Source of the DNA: an uncultured Gilliamella sp.
GTDB lineage: Bacteria > Pseudomonadota > Gammaproteobacteria > Enterobacterales > Orbaceae
Assembly: GCA_945276085.1 (NCBI GenBank)
Contig: CALYPO010000012.1
Location: forward strand, 1-33,746
Length of the DNA stretch: 33,746 bases
Direction: 5' to 3'
Below, piece after piece: positions 25,778-33,746 of the stretch; position 1 is the stretch's first letter, and each line of letters opens with the position of its first letter. Both the position numbers and the translations under genes were made by a program. A model generated the notes under the pieces. That model saw only the letters and a list, made by a program, of their open reading frames with translations. It searched no databases and was not told the origin of the DNA.

Positions 25778-26491
25778 TCAGTTACCTAAACTTATTAGCG
25801 CATTTAAATTTTTAATGAAAATATATCTGCCTTTAACGTGTAAAATATCTTGTTCTTGTAGTTTCGACAAAATTCGGCTTACGGTTTCAATCGTTAAACC
25901 TAAATAATTTGCTATATCACTACGGCTCATAGATAACTTTATGTTTAGTGATGTGTGACCACGATTTTCATATCTTCTATAAAGAGAATATATAAAATAG
26001 GCTAGGCGTTCATCAGCCTTTTTCTGAGAATAACATAAAATTAATTTTTGATAGTTATAAATGTCATTACTTAATAACCTAAATATCATGCTTCTGACAC
26101 AAGCATTTGATTCAACTAAAGACATTAGTTCTTCATAACGCAATTCACAAGCTAAAGTATTAGTAAGCGCTTTAATGTTGTTATTATATATTTTAGTTGA
26201 TATAGAATCCAGTCCAACAATATCACCAGGTAGATAAAAGCCATTAATCTGTTCTTTATTGTCTGATGTTGTAACATAGGTTTTTACAGCACCAGAATGA
26301 ATAATAAAAAACCGAGTAAAATCAGTGCTCTTGGATACTATGAGTTCATCTTTAGCATAAGTCTTTTTACGTTCCAAAACATTATTTAAAGTATTATTTA
26401 ATAACATTGGTAGACATAAAGAGCCTATACTGCATAATTCGCAAGGAACTGAATAACTTTTTGATCGTATATTCTTATTGGTAGTTTGCAT
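25778..26491 (-). CDS. fnr: Fumarate and nitrate reduction regulator FNR
   Basis: A 237-residue CRP/FNR-family oxygen-sensing transcription factor. All four cluster cysteines are present: Cys17, Cys20 and Cys26 in C-E-L-C-S-I-G-S-L-C, and Cys115 in L-A-C-E-L. A cyclic-nucleotide-fold domain with L-P-G-D-I-V-G-L-D-S-I, a dimerisation helix, and a C-terminal helix-turn-helix follow. The recognition helix T-I-E-T-V-S-R-I-L keeps the E-x-x-S-R contacts, so it should read TTGAT-N4-ATCAA. The N terminus is shorter than in E. coli (250 aa). No close FNR box was found in front of it or of the fumarate reductase operon in this window. Confidence 0.93.
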   Translation of the reverse strand: MQTTNKNIRSKSYSVPCELCSIGSLCLPMLLNNTLNNVLERKKTYAKDELIVSKSTDFTRFFIIHSGAVKTYVTTSDNKEQINGFYLPGDIVGLDSISTKIYNNNIKALTNTLACELRYEELMSLVESNACVRSMIFRLLSNDIYNYQKLILCYSQKKADERLAYFIYSLYRRYENRGHTSLNIKLSMSRSDIANYLGLTIETVSRILSKLQEQDILHVKGRYIFIKNLNALISLGN

Positions 26492-27097
26492 AATAAATTA
26501 ATCATTAATCCAAGTTCAGTTCTAGCCAAGAGTAACATATTTTTATGATAAAACAACAATTGGCCAATTCATATAGTTTAAATTATTAATCAACAAAACG
26601 TTCATTTAGTTTAAATTAACAGAAGGCAAGCATTAAAATAAGCATAATAATGAAAAGTATTAATAGGTGTTAGCAATTATATACTAAAGATAATCGATTT
26701 TATATTATGATATTGACTATCACTCTAAAAGGTTAAATTACGGTTTGATCTGATAGTTAAAGAACTTTTAATCAATTTTGAATTGAAAGTAGGGTTTAGC
26801 AAAACGGTGATATAACTGAAAATCATTTTAAGTTCGTAATAATGAATGCATTTAACATAATATACATTATCCAAATCTTATCCAATTGATTAAAAACAAT
26901 AAAAATCTAAAATATTTTTTCATTCATATGGCTATAATGTTCATAGAGAATAGGGCGTTATATAAGATTTATAAGTAGAAAATTAAATCTAGTTCAATGA
27001 TTTATAATTACGAATTTAAGTTAATTTTTTTAAAATTCACTTATTAATAATAATTATTAATTTATTATAGAATACCCAACTGGCTAAATACAATCCG
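26492..27097. other. Gene-free AT-rich stretch upstream of fnr containing an inverted dif-like site
   Basis: No coding region can be supported over these 606 bases on either strand. The only recognisable element is the dif-like core at 26850-26877, listed separately. The first 100 bases should hold the fnr promoter. The remainder is very AT-rich with many stops and may be decayed mobile DNA. Confidence 0.6.
26850..26877 (-). repeat. Second dif-like XerC/XerD site, inverted relative to dif
   Basis: Read on the minus strand, the site has a XerC arm GATTTGGATAA, centre TGTATA and XerD arm TTATGTTAAAT. It is 25/28 identical to the dif at 27959-27986, with the centre and XerD arm identical and all differences in the outer XerC arm. 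Its orientation is opposite, and it lies 1081 bp away (inner edges). Confidence 0.8.
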
Positions 27098-27316
27098 TTA
27101 AATCATAAAAAATAAGCCTTTATGTTTACCATCAAAAAAGACAAGTACAATAAATATCATGATAACAGCCAAAATAATTCTAAATTTTCTTTTTTTAAAA
27201 AGTTTTTCAATCGTGTTATTTAGATAAGTTCTATCAACATAACTCATATATAATATCAAAATAACCAATAAAACAGCTATTGGAACAGCTAAAACCATAT
27301 CATTATTAATTGTCAT
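27098..27316 (-). CDS. Small two-helix membrane protein, unknown
   Basis: A 72-residue ORF with two hydrophobic helices at about 8-26 and 46-63, separated by a basic loop that includes K-K-R-K. It has no recognisable family and only a weak ribosome site. It lies between the two inverted dif-like sites, next to a filamentous-phage remnant. It could therefore be phage cargo (inoviruses encode many small membrane proteins), but it is on the strand opposite to the replication gene remnant. Whether it is expressed is unknown. Confidence 0.4.
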   Translation of the reverse strand: MTINNDMVLAVPIAVLLVILILYMSYVDRTYLNNTIEKLFKKRKFRIILAVIMIFIVLVFFDGKHKGLFFMI

Positions 27317-27518
27317 ATTTTTGTTTAACTCATTATCTATATCTAACTATAAATGCAATTACCCGGAATTCTTTTTCTTAAAAATAATTGAAACGGTTAT
27401 CGTAAAATCACTGTCAAAATTACCAAACCTTAAAACGATTTAATCAAAATCCTAATCCTAATCCTAAATAATAATGTAACATTTATTATCTAGAACGCAT
27501 AACAAAATTTATACAGAT

Positions 27519-27917
27519 ATGTTTTCACATTATTGGGGATTATCAAGCTATAAACGATTAAATGAATTACATGATGAATTTTTAAATTTAGATAAAAAAC
27601 TGGCGGTTAATGCGATGGATTTTGAAACTATCAGCGAACAATTAATAAGGTGTGGCGTAGTAGAAACCACACGTTCAGCAAATACTACTGCAATGTATGC
27701 GATTCAATGGGCGCATGGACAAACATTTGATTTTAACAAATCACAGGTTCAAATACACAGAGCACGTTTGAGAAAAATCGGCATCGACATAGCACAACGT
27801 TGCAATCTGGCAAAATTCAGCCCGATTTCTGTTCGAGAAATTCGACAGGTTACGGTATCTGATTGTCCAATTCCTGATTGGTACAAAATGCCACAGATAT
27901 TTAAATTAGCGTCGTAA
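27519..27917 (+). pseudogene. C-terminal remnant of a filamentous-phage replication initiator (gene II/X family)
   Basis: A 132-residue ORF resembling the Phage_X domain, the C-terminal part of inovirus G2P replication proteins. Seen: a long helix, then A-M-Y-A-I-Q-W, S-Q-V-Q-I-H-R-A-R-L-R-K-I-G-I-D-I, and a terminal V-x-D-C-P-I-P-D-W-Y-K-M-P that parallels the R-P-D-W-Y-N-E-P end of the M13 protein. The catalytic N-terminal initiator domain (Phage_CRI) is absent: upstream in frame there is a stop at 27477-27479 and no further matching sequence. It may be a free X-type protein, since M13 makes one from an internal start, but a truncated remnant is likelier. It ends 41 bp before dif. A direct hexamer repeat CCTAAT (three copies, 27451-27467) lies just upstream. 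Confidence 0.65.
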
Positions 27918-27930
27918 ATTGGTTAGCTGA

Positions 27931-27969
27931 ATGATGAAAATTCACGTACGTTTATCGTGGTGCGGATAA
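27931..27969 (+). other. Short ORF running into dif, possibly the cut start of a phage gene
   Basis: ATG-ATG opens 12 codons (M-M-K-I-H-V-R-L-S-W-C-G), with the last codons and the TAA stop supplied by the dif XerC arm. It begins 13 bp after the replication-protein remnant, where inoviruses often place a single-stranded DNA-binding protein gene. It may be the N-terminal stump of such a gene cut at the integration junction. This is only an inference from position. Confidence 0.25.
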
Positions 27970-27986
27970 TGTATATTATGTTAAAT
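27959..27986 (+). other. dif: Chromosome dimer resolution site dif
   Basis: The 28 bases GGTGCGGATAA-TGTATA-TTATGTTAAAT match E. coli dif at 27 of 28 positions as I recall it; the only change is C to G at position 7 of the XerC arm. XerC binds the left 11 bp, XerD the right 11 bp, and the strands are exchanged at the 6-bp centre. It lies between fnr and rlhA, among genes that in E. coli also belong to the replication terminus half. An inverted second copy and an inovirus remnant lie to its left. Confidence 0.92.
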
Positions 27987-28206: not shown

Positions 28207-30153
28207 TTATTTAGATATGAAAATAATTTCGCTTCCTGACAATGGCATTTTTAAAACATGATTTTTAATTTTACCCCAAACTTGCATTTCACATGCTTTA
28301 CAGTTAAATTTCAAAATGAGCTCTTCATTATTATTTTGTATTAACTTCATTGGTGTGACTTTTGTTTTGACACCTTGAATACCTTTAGCTTGTTTCGGAC
28401 ATAAATTGAACGCAAATCGCAAACAGTGTTTTGTTATCATCAAAGGAACATCATCTTTAATTTCATGAGCTTCATATGCGCTTTCTATTAATTGAACACC
28501 ATGTTGTTTATAAAACTCACGGGCTTTATGATTATAGACATTAGCTAAATAAGTTAATTGATTATCGGGATAAATTGGTTTTGGGTTAGTTTCAGGCTTA
28601 CGCTTATTGGTTTGGTAGCTTGCTAACCTTGCTGAAGTTAATTTTTCAATAATGTCTCGTCTTAATTGATTAAGTTGACTGCTGGGAATAAAATAAATTA
28701 TCGATAAATCGATAATAAGCTCAGACAAATAATAAATAGTTTGCCCAAGTTTAGATAGATTATCTTGAATATTTTTTAACGCTTTATCAGTTTGATTCGC
28801 CAAATCAAATTGACCAATCAGATCTAATTCGACACAAATACCCTCCTCACTTTTGGCTATCAACTGAATTCCATTATCGATATTAGACAACACAAACGAA
28901 ACACCAATACGACGATCGCTTGAATCTTTGAGTAAGTTTTGTTGCCATAAATGATCTAAATTACGATTAACAATAAAAGGCAATTTGATGGTATTAAGCG
29001 ATTTAGGAATTTCATTTGGATAAACCCGATATTGATTAGCACCTAATTTATCGACTTTATCTGCTCGAAATCCAAACACTTCTCGTTTAATGAGGACATT
29101 TAGACCATCACCATTAGTTAACATTTTTTCAGATTTAATATCAATATACTGAGCGGTTACATTAGTTATTTCACCAATTTGTAATCCAATAAATTTTGGC
29201 GACTCAAAAGCACCAATGTCAGGTTTTCGACCAGTAACAAAATAATCTGTATTACCACGGTTAAATGTTCGTTTGGGATCTGGTGTAAAAAAGTATTCTG
29301 TTTTGCCACTAGAAGCAGCCGTTAAATTCGATGAATTTGAAAGGATGTTATCCAATTTTTGTCGATAATGTGCAGTAATATTTTTTACATAAGTTAAATC
29401 TTTATAACGCCCTTCTATCTTAAACGATCTTACACCAGCTTGGATTAGCGATTCTAAATTATCTGATTGATAATTGTCTTTCATCGATAACAAATGCTTT
29501 TCGTAAGCAACAACACGTCCTTGATCATCTTTTAAAGTAAAAGGCAATCGGCAAGCCTGTGAGCAATCTCCACGATTAGCACTACGCCCAGTTTGCGCAT
29601 GTGAAATATAGCATTGCCCGGAAAAAGCGACACATAACGCACCATGAATAAAAAACTCTATTTTTGCATCTATTTGCTTAAAAATAGTCGTAATTTCATT
29701 TAAGTTTAATTCACGTGCTAATACAATTTGCGAAAAACCAACATCGGATAAAAACTTTGCCTTTTCTGGCGTTCGAATATCCATTTGCGTACTGGCATGT
29801 AAGTCGATTGGTGGAATATCTAAATTTAAAATACCCATATCTTGCACGATTAACGCATCAACGCCTGCATGATAGAATTGCCAAATTAATTGTCTTGCAG
29901 ATTCTAATTCATTATCATGAAGAATCGTATTTAACGTAACAAAAACTTTAGCGTAATAACGATGTGCAAATTCAACTAATTTTGCAATATCACTAACCGA
30001 ATTTCCTGCATTATGACGAGCGCCAAAACTAGGCCCGCCTATATATACAGCATCTGCACCATGTAAAATTGCCTGCATCGCAATTTCAATATTTTTTGCA
30101 GGACTTAGTAATTCTAATTGGTTTTTATTCTGATATTGATCCATCTGTGACAT
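28207..30153 (-). CDS. rlhA: 23S rRNA C2501 hydroxylation protein (peptidase U32 family)
   Basis: A 648-residue protein matching E. coli RlhA/YdcP (653 aa) along its length. The N-terminal U32 domain has L-E-L-L-S-P-A, H-G-A-D-A-V-Y-I-G-G and the cysteine cluster Cys174, Cys181, Cys197, Cys201 in the G-A-L-C...G-Q-C-Y...R-G-D-C-S-Q-A-C-R pattern, probable iron-sulfur ligands. The C-terminal region keeps H-C-L-R-F-A-F-N-L-C-P-K and the cysteine pair in F-N-C-K-A-C-E, typical of RlhA but absent in the shorter U32 protein TrhP. In E. coli it is needed for hydroxycytidine 2501 in the ribosomal peptidyl-transferase centre. It has a near-consensus promoter at 30206-30234. Confidence 0.93.
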   Translation of the reverse strand: MSQMDQYQNKNQLELLSPAKNIEIAMQAILHGADAVYIGGPSFGARHNAGNSVSDIAKLVEFAHRYYAKVFVTLNTILHDNELESARQLIWQFYHAGVDALIVQDMGILNLDIPPIDLHASTQMDIRTPEKAKFLSDVGFSQIVLARELNLNEITTIFKQIDAKIEFFIHGALCVAFSGQCYISHAQTGRSANRGDCSQACRLPFTLKDDQGRVVAYEKHLLSMKDNYQSDNLESLIQAGVRSFKIEGRYKDLTYVKNITAHYRQKLDNILSNSSNLTAASSGKTEYFFTPDPKRTFNRGNTDYFVTGRKPDIGAFESPKFIGLQIGEITNVTAQYIDIKSEKMLTNGDGLNVLIKREVFGFRADKVDKLGANQYRVYPNEIPKSLNTIKLPFIVNRNLDHLWQQNLLKDSSDRRIGVSFVLSNIDNGIQLIAKSEEGICVELDLIGQFDLANQTDKALKNIQDNLSKLGQTIYYLSELIIDLSIIYFIPSSQLNQLRRDIIEKLTSARLASYQTNKRKPETNPKPIYPDNQLTYLANVYNHKAREFYKQHGVQLIESAYEAHEIKDDVPLMITKHCLRFAFNLCPKQAKGIQGVKTKVTPMKLIQNNNEELILKFNCKACEMQVWGKIKNHVLKMPLSGSEIIFISK

Positions 30154-30282: not shown

Positions 30283-31156
30283 CTATTTAAGATAATGTCG
30301 TGCTTTTAAAGCCGCTATACGTTTGTCTAATGGCGGATGAGACATAAATAGTTCTGAAATTTTGGTTTTTTTCGCACCATTTATACAAAATGCCATTATC
30401 GATGAATCTTCTTTAGGTTCGTAACTTGTTTTTAACTTTTCTAACGCTGCAATCATTTTATTTGCACCTACCAATTTTGCCGAACCAGCATCAGCATGAA
30501 ATTCACGGTAACGTGAAAACCACATAGTAATAATACTTGCCAAAATACCAAAAATGATTTCAAAGACCATAACAATTAGATAATAAATCATTTGGGATGA
30601 TCCTCGATTACGTTCATCCATGGCTTGCTTGAGTTGCCAATGAAGCTAATAGTCTGGATATAAAAATAACAAATGTATTAATTACACCCTGTAATAAAGT
30701 CATTGTAACCATATCTCCATTAGCGATGTGACTCATTTCATGTGCAATGACAGCTTCTGCTTCATCCTGTGACATCGTACTTAATAAACCTGAGCTAACG
30801 GCAACCAATGAACTATTTTTACTTGCTCCTGTAGCAAATGCATTCATATCATTAGCTTCATAAATTGCCACATCTGGCATTTTTAAACCAAGCTGTTCTG
30901 CCTGATGATGAACAATATTTAATAACCATTGTTCTTGAGCATTGGCCGCACGTTTAATCAGTTTTCCTTTAACCGATTTTAATGCTATTGTTTTAGAGAA
31001 TAAAAGAGATATATATGAACCACCAAAGCCAAATATACCTGCAAAAATCAATAATCCTAAAGTACTGTGAGCATCTACCCCCAATATACTTAGGATAATA
31101 CCAAAGACAAACATTACTGCTAAATTAGTCAGTATAAATAGCCCTACTCGCATCAT
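30283..31156 (-). pseudogene. htpX: Protease HtpX, split by a frameshift
   Basis: Two overlapping frames together rebuild full-length HtpX (E. coli 293 aa), the inner-membrane zinc metalloprotease of protein quality control. The first frame (30614-31156, 180 aa) holds the N-terminal transmembrane helices and the zinc motif H-E-M-S-H (His139, Glu140, His143), ending S-H-G-stop. The second (30283-30621, 112 aa) starts M-D-E-R-N-R-G and holds the last helices, the third zinc-ligand region [12 protein letters not shown] and the C terminus. The break falls in the loop before the third helix, around 30619-30624 (CATGGATGA). Removing one C before the ATG would restore one frame. Since the zinc ligands are divided between the parts, neither should be active alone. 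It could be a real mutation, a sequencing error, or coupled translation of two chains. Confidence 0.88.
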
Positions 31157-31573: not shown

Positions 31574-31867
31574 TTAAAGCGTTAGGTTTTTTTCTACGCG
31601 ATCTCTAAATTTAATTCCTGGTCTAAAGGTAACAACCCGACGAGCAGAGATATCTACACTTTCACCCGTTTTTGGATTTCGACCCGGTCGTGAATTTTTA
31701 TCACGAATAGTGAAATTACCAAACCCAGATAATTTAACAGGTTCCCCTTTTTCTAAAGCCACTCGTATCTCTTCAAAAAAAAGTTCAACAAGGACTTTAG
31801 CTTCTTGACGATCAATATTAAATTTATCGGCAAGACGATCTGCAATATCAGCTTTAGTTAATGTCAT
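31574..31867 (-). CDS. ihfA: Integration host factor subunit alpha
   Basis: A 97-residue DNA-bending protein (E. coli 99 aa) that pairs with IHF-beta. The start is set at the ATG at 31867, giving M-T-L-T-K-A-D-I as in E. coli. A longer frame from 31921 would add 18 residues that overlap pheT and have no counterpart in the family. The helical dimer part has V-E-L-F-F-E-E-I, followed by [17 protein letters not shown] with the intercalating proline in the beta arm, and [10 protein letters not shown]. It starts 5 bp after the pheT stop, so it is coupled to pheT, the same order as in E. coli. Confidence 0.95.
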
Positions 31868-31872
31868 AATTA

Positions 31873-33746
31873 TTATTCTCTTAATAGGGCTTTGAAACGA
31901 ATTTGTAAAGCAGTAACACACCTGCTTACAATGTTTGTTATATCTTCTTCTTCAAGTGTACGTGATTTGTCTTGTAAAATCAAACTGATAGCAAGGCTTT
32001 TTTCATCATCCTTAATGTTATCGCCTTGATAAACATCAAACAGATTAACTTTGATAAGTTGCTCACCACCAGCCTTTTTACACTCAGAAATAATATCTGC
32101 TGCTGGAATTGTATTTGAAACGACAATAGCAATATCTCGTTTATTTGACGGATATTTTGATACGTCCTGAGCCGACGGTACCTTTTTGTTATTAATTTTA
32201 GCTAAATTTATTTCAAAAACAAGCGTTTTACCATTTAAAGATAATTTTTTTTCAATTTCTGGATGCAAAACACCTAAATAACCAATAATTTCATCATTTA
32301 CAAAAATAGCGGCACTTTGTCCAGGATGTAAAGCAGACAAATTAGATTTTTCATAGCGTACGTCTTGAGCACATCCTAGAATCGAAAATATTGACTCAAT
32401 ATCCCCTTTTAGATCATAAAAATCAACAGCTTTTTTAGGTAATGTCCAATGTTCTTCATATAAATTACCCGTAATTACACCCGATAACATTTGTTCCTGA
32501 CGAACACCAAATTCACTTTTATCGTCTGGAATAAAGCGTAAGCCAGTTTCAAACAATCTAATTCTTGATTGTTGTCGGTTTTGATTATATAACACTGCGC
32601 CTAATAATCCAGTCCATAATGATAAACGCATAACTGACATTTCACTTGAAATAGGATTAGGTAAGTGAATTTGGTTTAAATTGGGATGCAAAATTTGTTG
32701 TACTTTTGGATCAACAAAACTGTAAGTTACAGCTTCTTGATAACCTTTATCAACTAATAAATCTTTTATTCTAGCTAATGAAATTTGACCTTCTGGTTTT
32801 GGCTGCATGACAGACTCAATGTTTAAGTTGGCGTTTGGAATATTGTTATATCCATAAATACGCGCCACTTCCTCAACGAGATCTTCTTCTATCTGTATAT
32901 CAAAACGCCAACTTGGTGCTTCAACTGACCAAATTTCATTTTTATAATTAACTTTACATCCAAGTCTTTCTAAAATATCAGTGATTTTTTGTGTATCAAT
33001 TGTATAACCAATTATGCTATCAATTTTATTACGGCGTAGTTGTATGTTAGCTGATTTTGGCAATTCAGTTGAACTGGTTTTGTCAACAATCGGTCCGACC
33101 TCACCGCCACAAATATCGAGGATAAGTTGTGTTGCTCTTTCCATCGCAATGCTTTGTAAAGCTGGATCAACTCCTCTTTCATACCGATGAGACGCTTCAG
33201 TATGCAGACCATATTCACGAGCTTTCCCGGTAATAGCTAATGGTGCAAAGAAGGCCGATTCAAGAAAAATATCTTTCGTCGATTGAGTCACACCAGATTT
33301 TTCTCCGCCCATAATACCGGCTAAGGCAAGTATTTTATCATGATCCGCAATAACTAAAGTTTGATCATTCAATTCAGTTTCATTGCCATTAAGTAAAACA
33401 ACTTTTTCACTTTTTCGAGCATATCTCACAATAATGCCCTTTTCTATTTCGGCAAGATCAAATGCATGCATTGGATGACCAAGCTCTAACAAAACAAAAT
33501 TTGTTATATCGACAACCGCATCAATAGACCGTATTCCACCACGACGTAATTTTTCTTTCATCCAAAGTGGGGTTATTGCGTTTACATTGATATTTTTGAT
33601 AACACGCCCTAAATAACGAGGCGCAGCTTTAGGCTCATCAATTTGAATTGATAATGTATCTGAAATTGTTGCAGGCACGCTTTCAACTTGGAGTGATTTC
33701 ATTGGAATATTGTTCACTGCTGAAATATCACGAGCGACACCAATGA
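31873..33746 (-). CDS. pheT: Phenylalanine-tRNA ligase beta subunit (partial, 5' end outside window)
   Basis: About 624 residues of the beta chain of phenylalanyl-tRNA synthetase are present; the family is about 795 aa, so roughly 170 N-terminal residues lie beyond the right edge. The frame stays open from base 33746: residues I-G-V-A-R-D-I-S precede the apparent GTG at 33717, which is therefore internal. Seen: the B3/B4 tRNA-editing region ([19 protein letters not shown] type), the B5 domain, the catalytic-like domain with S-Y-S-F-V-D-P and S-L-W-T-G-L-L, and the C-terminal anticodon-binding domain with [14 protein letters not shown]. It forms an operon with ihfA. Confidence 0.97.

Follow-up and report, generated by a model that had tools for sequence, protein, structure and literature searches.

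Can a chromosome terminus carry two dif sites that face opposite ways, and is such a pair a working system or a scar? The question arises from a stretch of 33,746 nt from an uncultured Gilliamella sp. (the window, meaning the whole of the DNA analysed), where two such sites bracket a short segment. A preliminary description of the window had likened the pair to plasmid dif modules or to the paired attachment sites of CTX-type phages, and had proposed that the segment may exist in both orientations. This interpretation is partly supported: the pair and its two orientations stood, the kinship with the mobile elements was not supported. Conservation within the family, an IHF-like motif and the identity of a cargo ORF as a remnant of inovirus gene II were absent from it.

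Two inverted dif sites at one chromosomal locus

Dif sites were sought in the window with a dif consensus, tolerating up to 3 mismatches. Exactly two matches were obtained, and none in each of 100 shuffles. The canonical dif lies at 27959-27986 on the forward strand with 1 mismatch to this consensus. The second site, here called the partner, lies at 26850-26877 on the reverse strand with 2 mismatches and has homologous partner sites in relatives. Following the usual dif layout, the canonical site was divided into XerC arm (27959-27969), centre (27970-27975) and XerD arm (27976-27986), and the partner into XerD arm (26850-26860), centre (26861-26866) and a degenerate XerC arm (26867-26877). The same layout of XerC arm, centre and XerD arm is given for dif1 of V. 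cholerae (PMC3089051). The canonical site has the full 28-bp XerCD-type architecture; in the partner the XerC arm is degenerate (GATTTGG vs GGTGCGG in the canonical site). A 21-bp core, ATAATGTATATTATGTTAAAT, comprising the last 4 bases of the XerC arm, the 6-bp centre and the 11-bp XerD arm, is identical in both sites, which are its only mismatch-free copies in the 1.72-Mb source genome. The XerD arms point outward and the XerC arms inward. Both the inverted orientation and the identity of centre and XerD arm, as described beforehand, are thus borne out.

The left neighbour of the pair is a Crp/Fnr-type regulator gene (25778-26491, reverse strand; here called fnr), which is conserved beside the pair in relatives. 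Its protein has counterparts of 100% identity in Gilliamella sp. wkB308 and in a Gilliamella metagenome-assembled genome. On the right follows a U32-family peptidase gene (28207-30153, reverse strand), found beside the pair in most relative stretches reaching that far. Throughout the family genomes the pair sits between fnr and the U32 gene wherever a stretch reaches both; some stretches end before the U32 gene or give no U32 match. Further to the right, two overlapping ORFs (30283-30621 and 30614-31156) match consecutive parts of an M48 peptidase model, so that this gene looks split. The source genome is a 67%-complete draft of 126 contigs. In ten relatives the locus lies ∼36-42% of the record away from dnaA, as calculated from positions and record lengths, and the earlier placement of the pair in the terminus holds there.

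Two dif cores on one contig were found in 30 of 44 family genomes (the window's included), 172-2490 bp apart and in all 30 cases inverted with the XerD arms outward. Relatives with the second site therefore exist, and the locus is indeed an exception to one dif per chromosome. Three further genomes (G013, G021, G023) have two sites at or near contig ends, and another (G001) has a single core at a contig start. The partner site is dispensable, since five genomes carry one site only (G029, G030, G039, G042, G043) and five have no core within 2 mismatches (G019, G022, G034, G035, G041). Pairs occur in three of the five genus-level groups (g1, g2, g3), and none was found in g4 and g5 (3 genomes in all). 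Five of the genomes with a pair consist of a single contig (G002, G003, G027, G028, G032).

Two wider controls were carried out. Within the order, 397 genomes, 38 of them from the family, were searched at up to 1 mismatch and the strand table was read by eye. The core was present in 311 of the 397, and in none of the 359 genomes outside the family was it found on both strands. Two genomes (G105, G285) had two cores on one strand; those of G105 (C1:2201 and 2427162) lie far apart on one contig and share the same changed centre. In the class control (377 genomes, up to 2 mismatches, table read by us), cores on both strands were found in six genomes besides the window's. In five of these (G050, G480, G556, G663, G679) the opposite-strand cores are on different contigs. 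The sixth, G447, lies outside the order and has exact cores at C1:158088 and 187405, 29.3 kb apart in opposite orientation with the XerD arms inward. No report of a short, unequal dif pair common to a family was found in the open literature searched.

Constraint on the unequal sites and an IHF-like motif

The two sites of a pair are rarely equivalent. When canonicity of the XerC arm was scored on its first 7 bases by a rule of our own, one site was more canonical in 26 of the 30 pairs and both were equal in four (G002, G003, G015, G032). Across the 26 unequal pairs, cells differing from the majority number 4 of 286 in the partner XerD arm and 1 of 156 in its centre, compared to 229 of 520 in the next 20 bp outward. 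The canonical site gave similar values (1/286, 1/156 and 215/520, respectively). The centres are equal within every one of the 30 pairs; in G025 both sites share the changed centre TCTATA, and G021 has TATATA at both contig ends. An inert scar is less likely, given this conservation of the partner XerD arm and centre.

Beside the degenerate XerC arm of the partner lies the motif WATCAANNNNTTR, which we take to be the IHF consensus. In the window it occupies 26879-26891 on the reverse strand, with one mismatch. The scan covered, on the site's strand, the 25 bp inside the site and the first 7 bases of the XerC arm; the partner arm of G013 fell outside the region taken. Of 28 partner sites, 20 carry the motif exactly and 26 with no more than 1 mismatch; in 25 of these 26 it takes one of two offsets. 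None of 27 canonical sites and none of 8 sites of equal pairs has it, and one of the 5 single sites does. Among 18,920 overlapping 32-mers taken as background from these loci, 83 contain it. Because partner sites share ancestry, the motif counts are not independent. Between g1 and g3 the motif is kept where adjacent sequence is not. The window itself encodes an IHF alpha subunit (31574-31921, reverse strand; TIGR00987 over the cut-off, match at 31589-31864), as do all 11 genomes searched, the window's included. IHF may bind at the partner side.

A second conserved motif, ATTATTRCGAACT, lies outside the partner XerD arm (26831-26843, reverse strand), and its reverse complement resembles a XerC arm. 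In the window's clade (G000, G010, G027, G033) this motif and the partner are on the fnr side, the motif being the outer of the two; in ten pairs (G006, G007, G011, G012, G016, G017, G018, G020, G028, G036) both are on the U32 side, again with the motif outermost. The motif is on both sides in G008 and, weakly, in G024. In the window's clade the motif has thus moved with the partner, and one core-to-core flip does not explain the orientation of the clade. Copying of a flank followed by a flip could place the motif on the fnr side.

Orientation of the segment and copying of its flanks

With fnr drawn on the left, 17 of the 30 pairs have the canonical site nearer to fnr and nine have it nearer to the U32 gene; four are undecided. 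Orientation was mapped on a quick tree of hrpA and fnr (39 genomes, midpoint root), scoring 25 genomes; G005, G008, G012 and the equal pairs were left out, and G013 and G023 were scored from separate contigs. At least five orientation changes are needed among the scored genomes, and the tree has at least three changes between pair and single site. Close relatives differ as well. The inserts of the sister species G014 and G025 are 92% identical over 138 bp and stand in opposite orientation, and so does the basic insert common to the sisters G020 and G026 (95%).

Two draft assemblies contain both orientations, with the switch point at the core. Contig C1 of G005 has the order fnr, partner, insert, canonical site, U32 gene; on contig C7 the U32 flank, identical over 1388 bp, is joined instead to the partner arm, with the insert in reverse (135/135 bp). 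Contig C11 of G012 runs from the fnr flank (105/105 bp) through canonical site, cargo and partner to the U32 gene, and on C13 the fnr flank is found on either side of the pair (1023/1023 bp). The flanks share 1 bp outside the core in G012 and 13 bp in G005. Together with the relatives that carry the pair, these assemblies bear out the proposal that the segment may exist in both orientations. G008 and G004 were dropped as proof of two orientations, as their outer flanks are repeated over 135 bp and at least 285 bp, respectively. The contigs of G001 and of G021 (at both ends) stop exactly at the core, which is compatible with a branch there. Judged from these contigs, either inversion within a chromosome or exchange between sisters may account for the mixed orientations.

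In some pairs the sequence outside the core has been copied. Matching flanks of at least 22 bp were found in 11 of the 30 pairs (G002, G003, G004, G008, G009, G014, G015, G024, G025, G031, G032). In G032 the match extends over 1113 bp without mismatch; at this locus (L101) an inverted second copy of the final 343 residues of the U32 gene stands on the other side of the pair. Inner flanks match as well in G002, G003, G015 and G032, over 59-315 bp. Such copies could have arisen when unlike sites of sister chromosomes recombined, or by fold-back replication.

Gene II remnants, recombinases and readings of the pair

The segment between the window's sites carries a piece of a filamentous phage. The ORF at 27519-27917 (forward strand) encodes a C-terminal piece (132 aa) of the inovirus replication protein G2P (PF05155, 5.5e-24), which covers positions 239-367 of the 382 of phrog_702 and is 66% identical to phage If1. 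Its 3' end points toward the canonical site, which the last third of gene II adjoins. Of a prophage, only this piece is present between the inverted sites, and there is no full prophage gene set between direct att repeats. A 72-aa hydrophobic ORF in the cargo (27098-27316, reverse strand) matched no family above the curated cut-off. The C-terminal part of G2P was found by tblastn with the window ORF in seven inserts including the window's, and a family search of selected ORFs added G018 and G026. Gene II pieces are thus present in 9 of the 30 inserts, and in all nine the 3' end is toward the canonical site. A complete phage was found in none of the 30 inserts, the longest being 2455 bp. Other selected cargo ORFs comprise a transposase piece (G003), an Aca2/YdiL-like piece (G018) and unknowns. 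In G031 a LamB porin gene lies between the dif sites (L100:6699-8450), so the segment can hold a host-type gene.

How a gene II end comes to lie next to dif is suggested by L066, an IMG/VR contig that carries genes for an ssDNA-binding protein and a Zot-family protein. Here 17 of 17 identical G2P end residues are followed by GGTTCGCATAATGTATATTATGGTTTTT, ahead of the ssDNA-binding gene. GGTTCGCATAATGTATATTATGGTTTTT has a XerC arm and a centre, but its XerD arm is poor; it forms a single dif-like attP at L066:83-110. Recombination of such an attP with dif would yield gene II end, XerC arm, centre and host XerD arm, as at 27917-27986. The argument rests on one phage contig: in the other 30 of the 31 phage loci, some of them truncated, gene II is not followed by any dif-like site at up to 2 mismatches to the core. 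L064 has one elsewhere, and 29 of the 31 loci have neither. The insert of G026 (2455 bp) ends in a broken site followed by a basic insert that is identical to that of G014 over 136/136 bp. Here a phage entered the canonical site of an already existing pair.

We consider it probable that the conserved dif pair of Gilliamella and some relatives recombines and has a phage landing strip inside. The dif locus consists of a canonical dif and an inverted partner, the latter with a weak XerC arm next to an IHF-like sequence. On activation by FtsK, XerC and XerD would recombine the two sites of the pair with each other and also the sister copies of each. Recombination between the two sites would invert the segment or, between sisters, swap the flanks, giving coexisting orientations. 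Filamentous phages with attP just after gene II would integrate at the canonical site and decay in the interior of the pair, leaving gene II stumps such as that at 27519-27917. A XerD-family match over the cut-off and FtsK gamma were found in all 11 genomes searched, and a second Xer paralogue in 10; it was not found in the window's genome, the 67%-complete draft. FtsK gamma activates XerD (PMC5052618). XerCD is the likely agent of recombination, and the twin inverted dif is a real and conserved variant of the dif system, probably an active one. The two sites may benefit the cell. With the XerD arms outward, XerD would be the first recombinase that FtsK encounters, from whichever chromosome arm it arrives. 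More tentatively, dimers might be resolved by the two inverted sites from either side in this way, with IHF gating the partner; exchange between unlike sites of sisters would then give head-to-head chromosomes and seed the copied flanks of the 11 pairs. This is possible, and we hold it loosely.

Other readings of the pair were weighed against its being a conserved, recombining dif variant. The partner might have been left by an ancient filamentous phage of the CTX type, integrating as a hairpin through inverted attP1 and attP2, and the pair would then be functionless; it could persist since only sites in direct orientation can delete each other. The gene II pieces agree with this, as does the XerC-arm-like motif outside the partner in many g1 genomes. 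CTX phage has two opposite dif-like sites ∼90 bp apart (PMC3089051). By our own derivation, integration of this type could leave a pair with the XerD arms outward. However, the partner XerD arm and centre are nearly invariant while the surroundings are not, in contrast to the broken phage junction in G026, where moreover the phage entered a pair already present. For the left-site region of the window, the predicted fold was not better than that of shuffled sequence (z +0.83), and 160 of 200 shuffles equalled or surpassed it. We consider such a relic unlikely. As a present structure, a CTX-type hairpin is not supported by this fold of the left-site region, nor is the suggested attP pair, the XerD arms being intact.

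It is still more doubtful that the pair is stable, that ordinary homologous recombination or inversions of a larger region made species differ in orientation, and that the mixed assemblies are errors of assembly. Flanks copied over at least 22 bp would permit homologous exchange, repeats can explain the contig breaks in G004 and G008, and the outside motif moved too in the window's clade. The flanks of G012 and G005, however, share only 1 bp and 13 bp outside the core, respectively, yet both junctions are present in contigs, over 1023 and 1388 identical bases. That the pair is an assembly artefact or a chance similarity is hardly credible. Several sites do lie at contig ends of drafts, but the shuffles gave no match and the pair is present in the five single-contig genomes. 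Chance similarity was rejected on the shuffles, the presence of the pair in relatives and the lack of cores on both strands in the 359 other genomes of the order.

Compared to known systems, the locus resembles the chromosomal dif/XerC/XerD/FtsK system of gammaproteobacteria in its 28-bp site, 6-bp centre, XerD arm, distance from dnaA and encoded recombinases and FtsK gamma; it differs in having two inverted sites and, in one of them, a degenerate XerC arm with an IHF-like motif next to it. Plasmid dif modules consist of oppositely facing XerC/XerD sites around a small cargo. The Gilliamella pair shares this arrangement, whereas its place is chromosomal and fixed with conserved neighbours. A plasmid module was therefore rejected and the suggested kinship is not supported; the only plasmid matches (2 records) fall under a phage/plasmid replication protein. 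CTX attP1 and attP2 are likewise inverted dif-like sites close together (PMC3089051), but they are phage-borne with altered centres and XerD arms, whereas here a host locus with intact XerD arms lies between the same genes across species. As in filamentous prophages at dif, a gene II remnant ends at dif, and L066 has its attP after gene II; here, though, the 30 inserts hold no complete phage and the flanking sites are inverted, not direct. In Lactobacillus bulgaricus, two putative dif sites in opposite orientation lie at the terminus, inside a 47.5-kb inverted repeat of one subspecies (PMC5345009). The opposite facing at the terminus is alike, whereas the pair described here spans 0.2-2.5 kb, is unequal in 26 of 30 cases and occurs in three genus-level groups.

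A single dif per chromosome is taken to be the rule. A 2023 review regards more than two dif sites per dimer as a problem, since a dimer stays unresolved if the wrong sites recombine (PMC10331603). Most examined members of the family carry four per dimer, with both sites nearly invariant. Resolution by two inverted sites, if true, would contradict the view that no more than one dif is tolerated per chromosome. Several family members are cultured and could therefore be used to test Xer partner choice and the side of FtsK action. The system could also test the origins of terminus palindromes and of phage landing sites.
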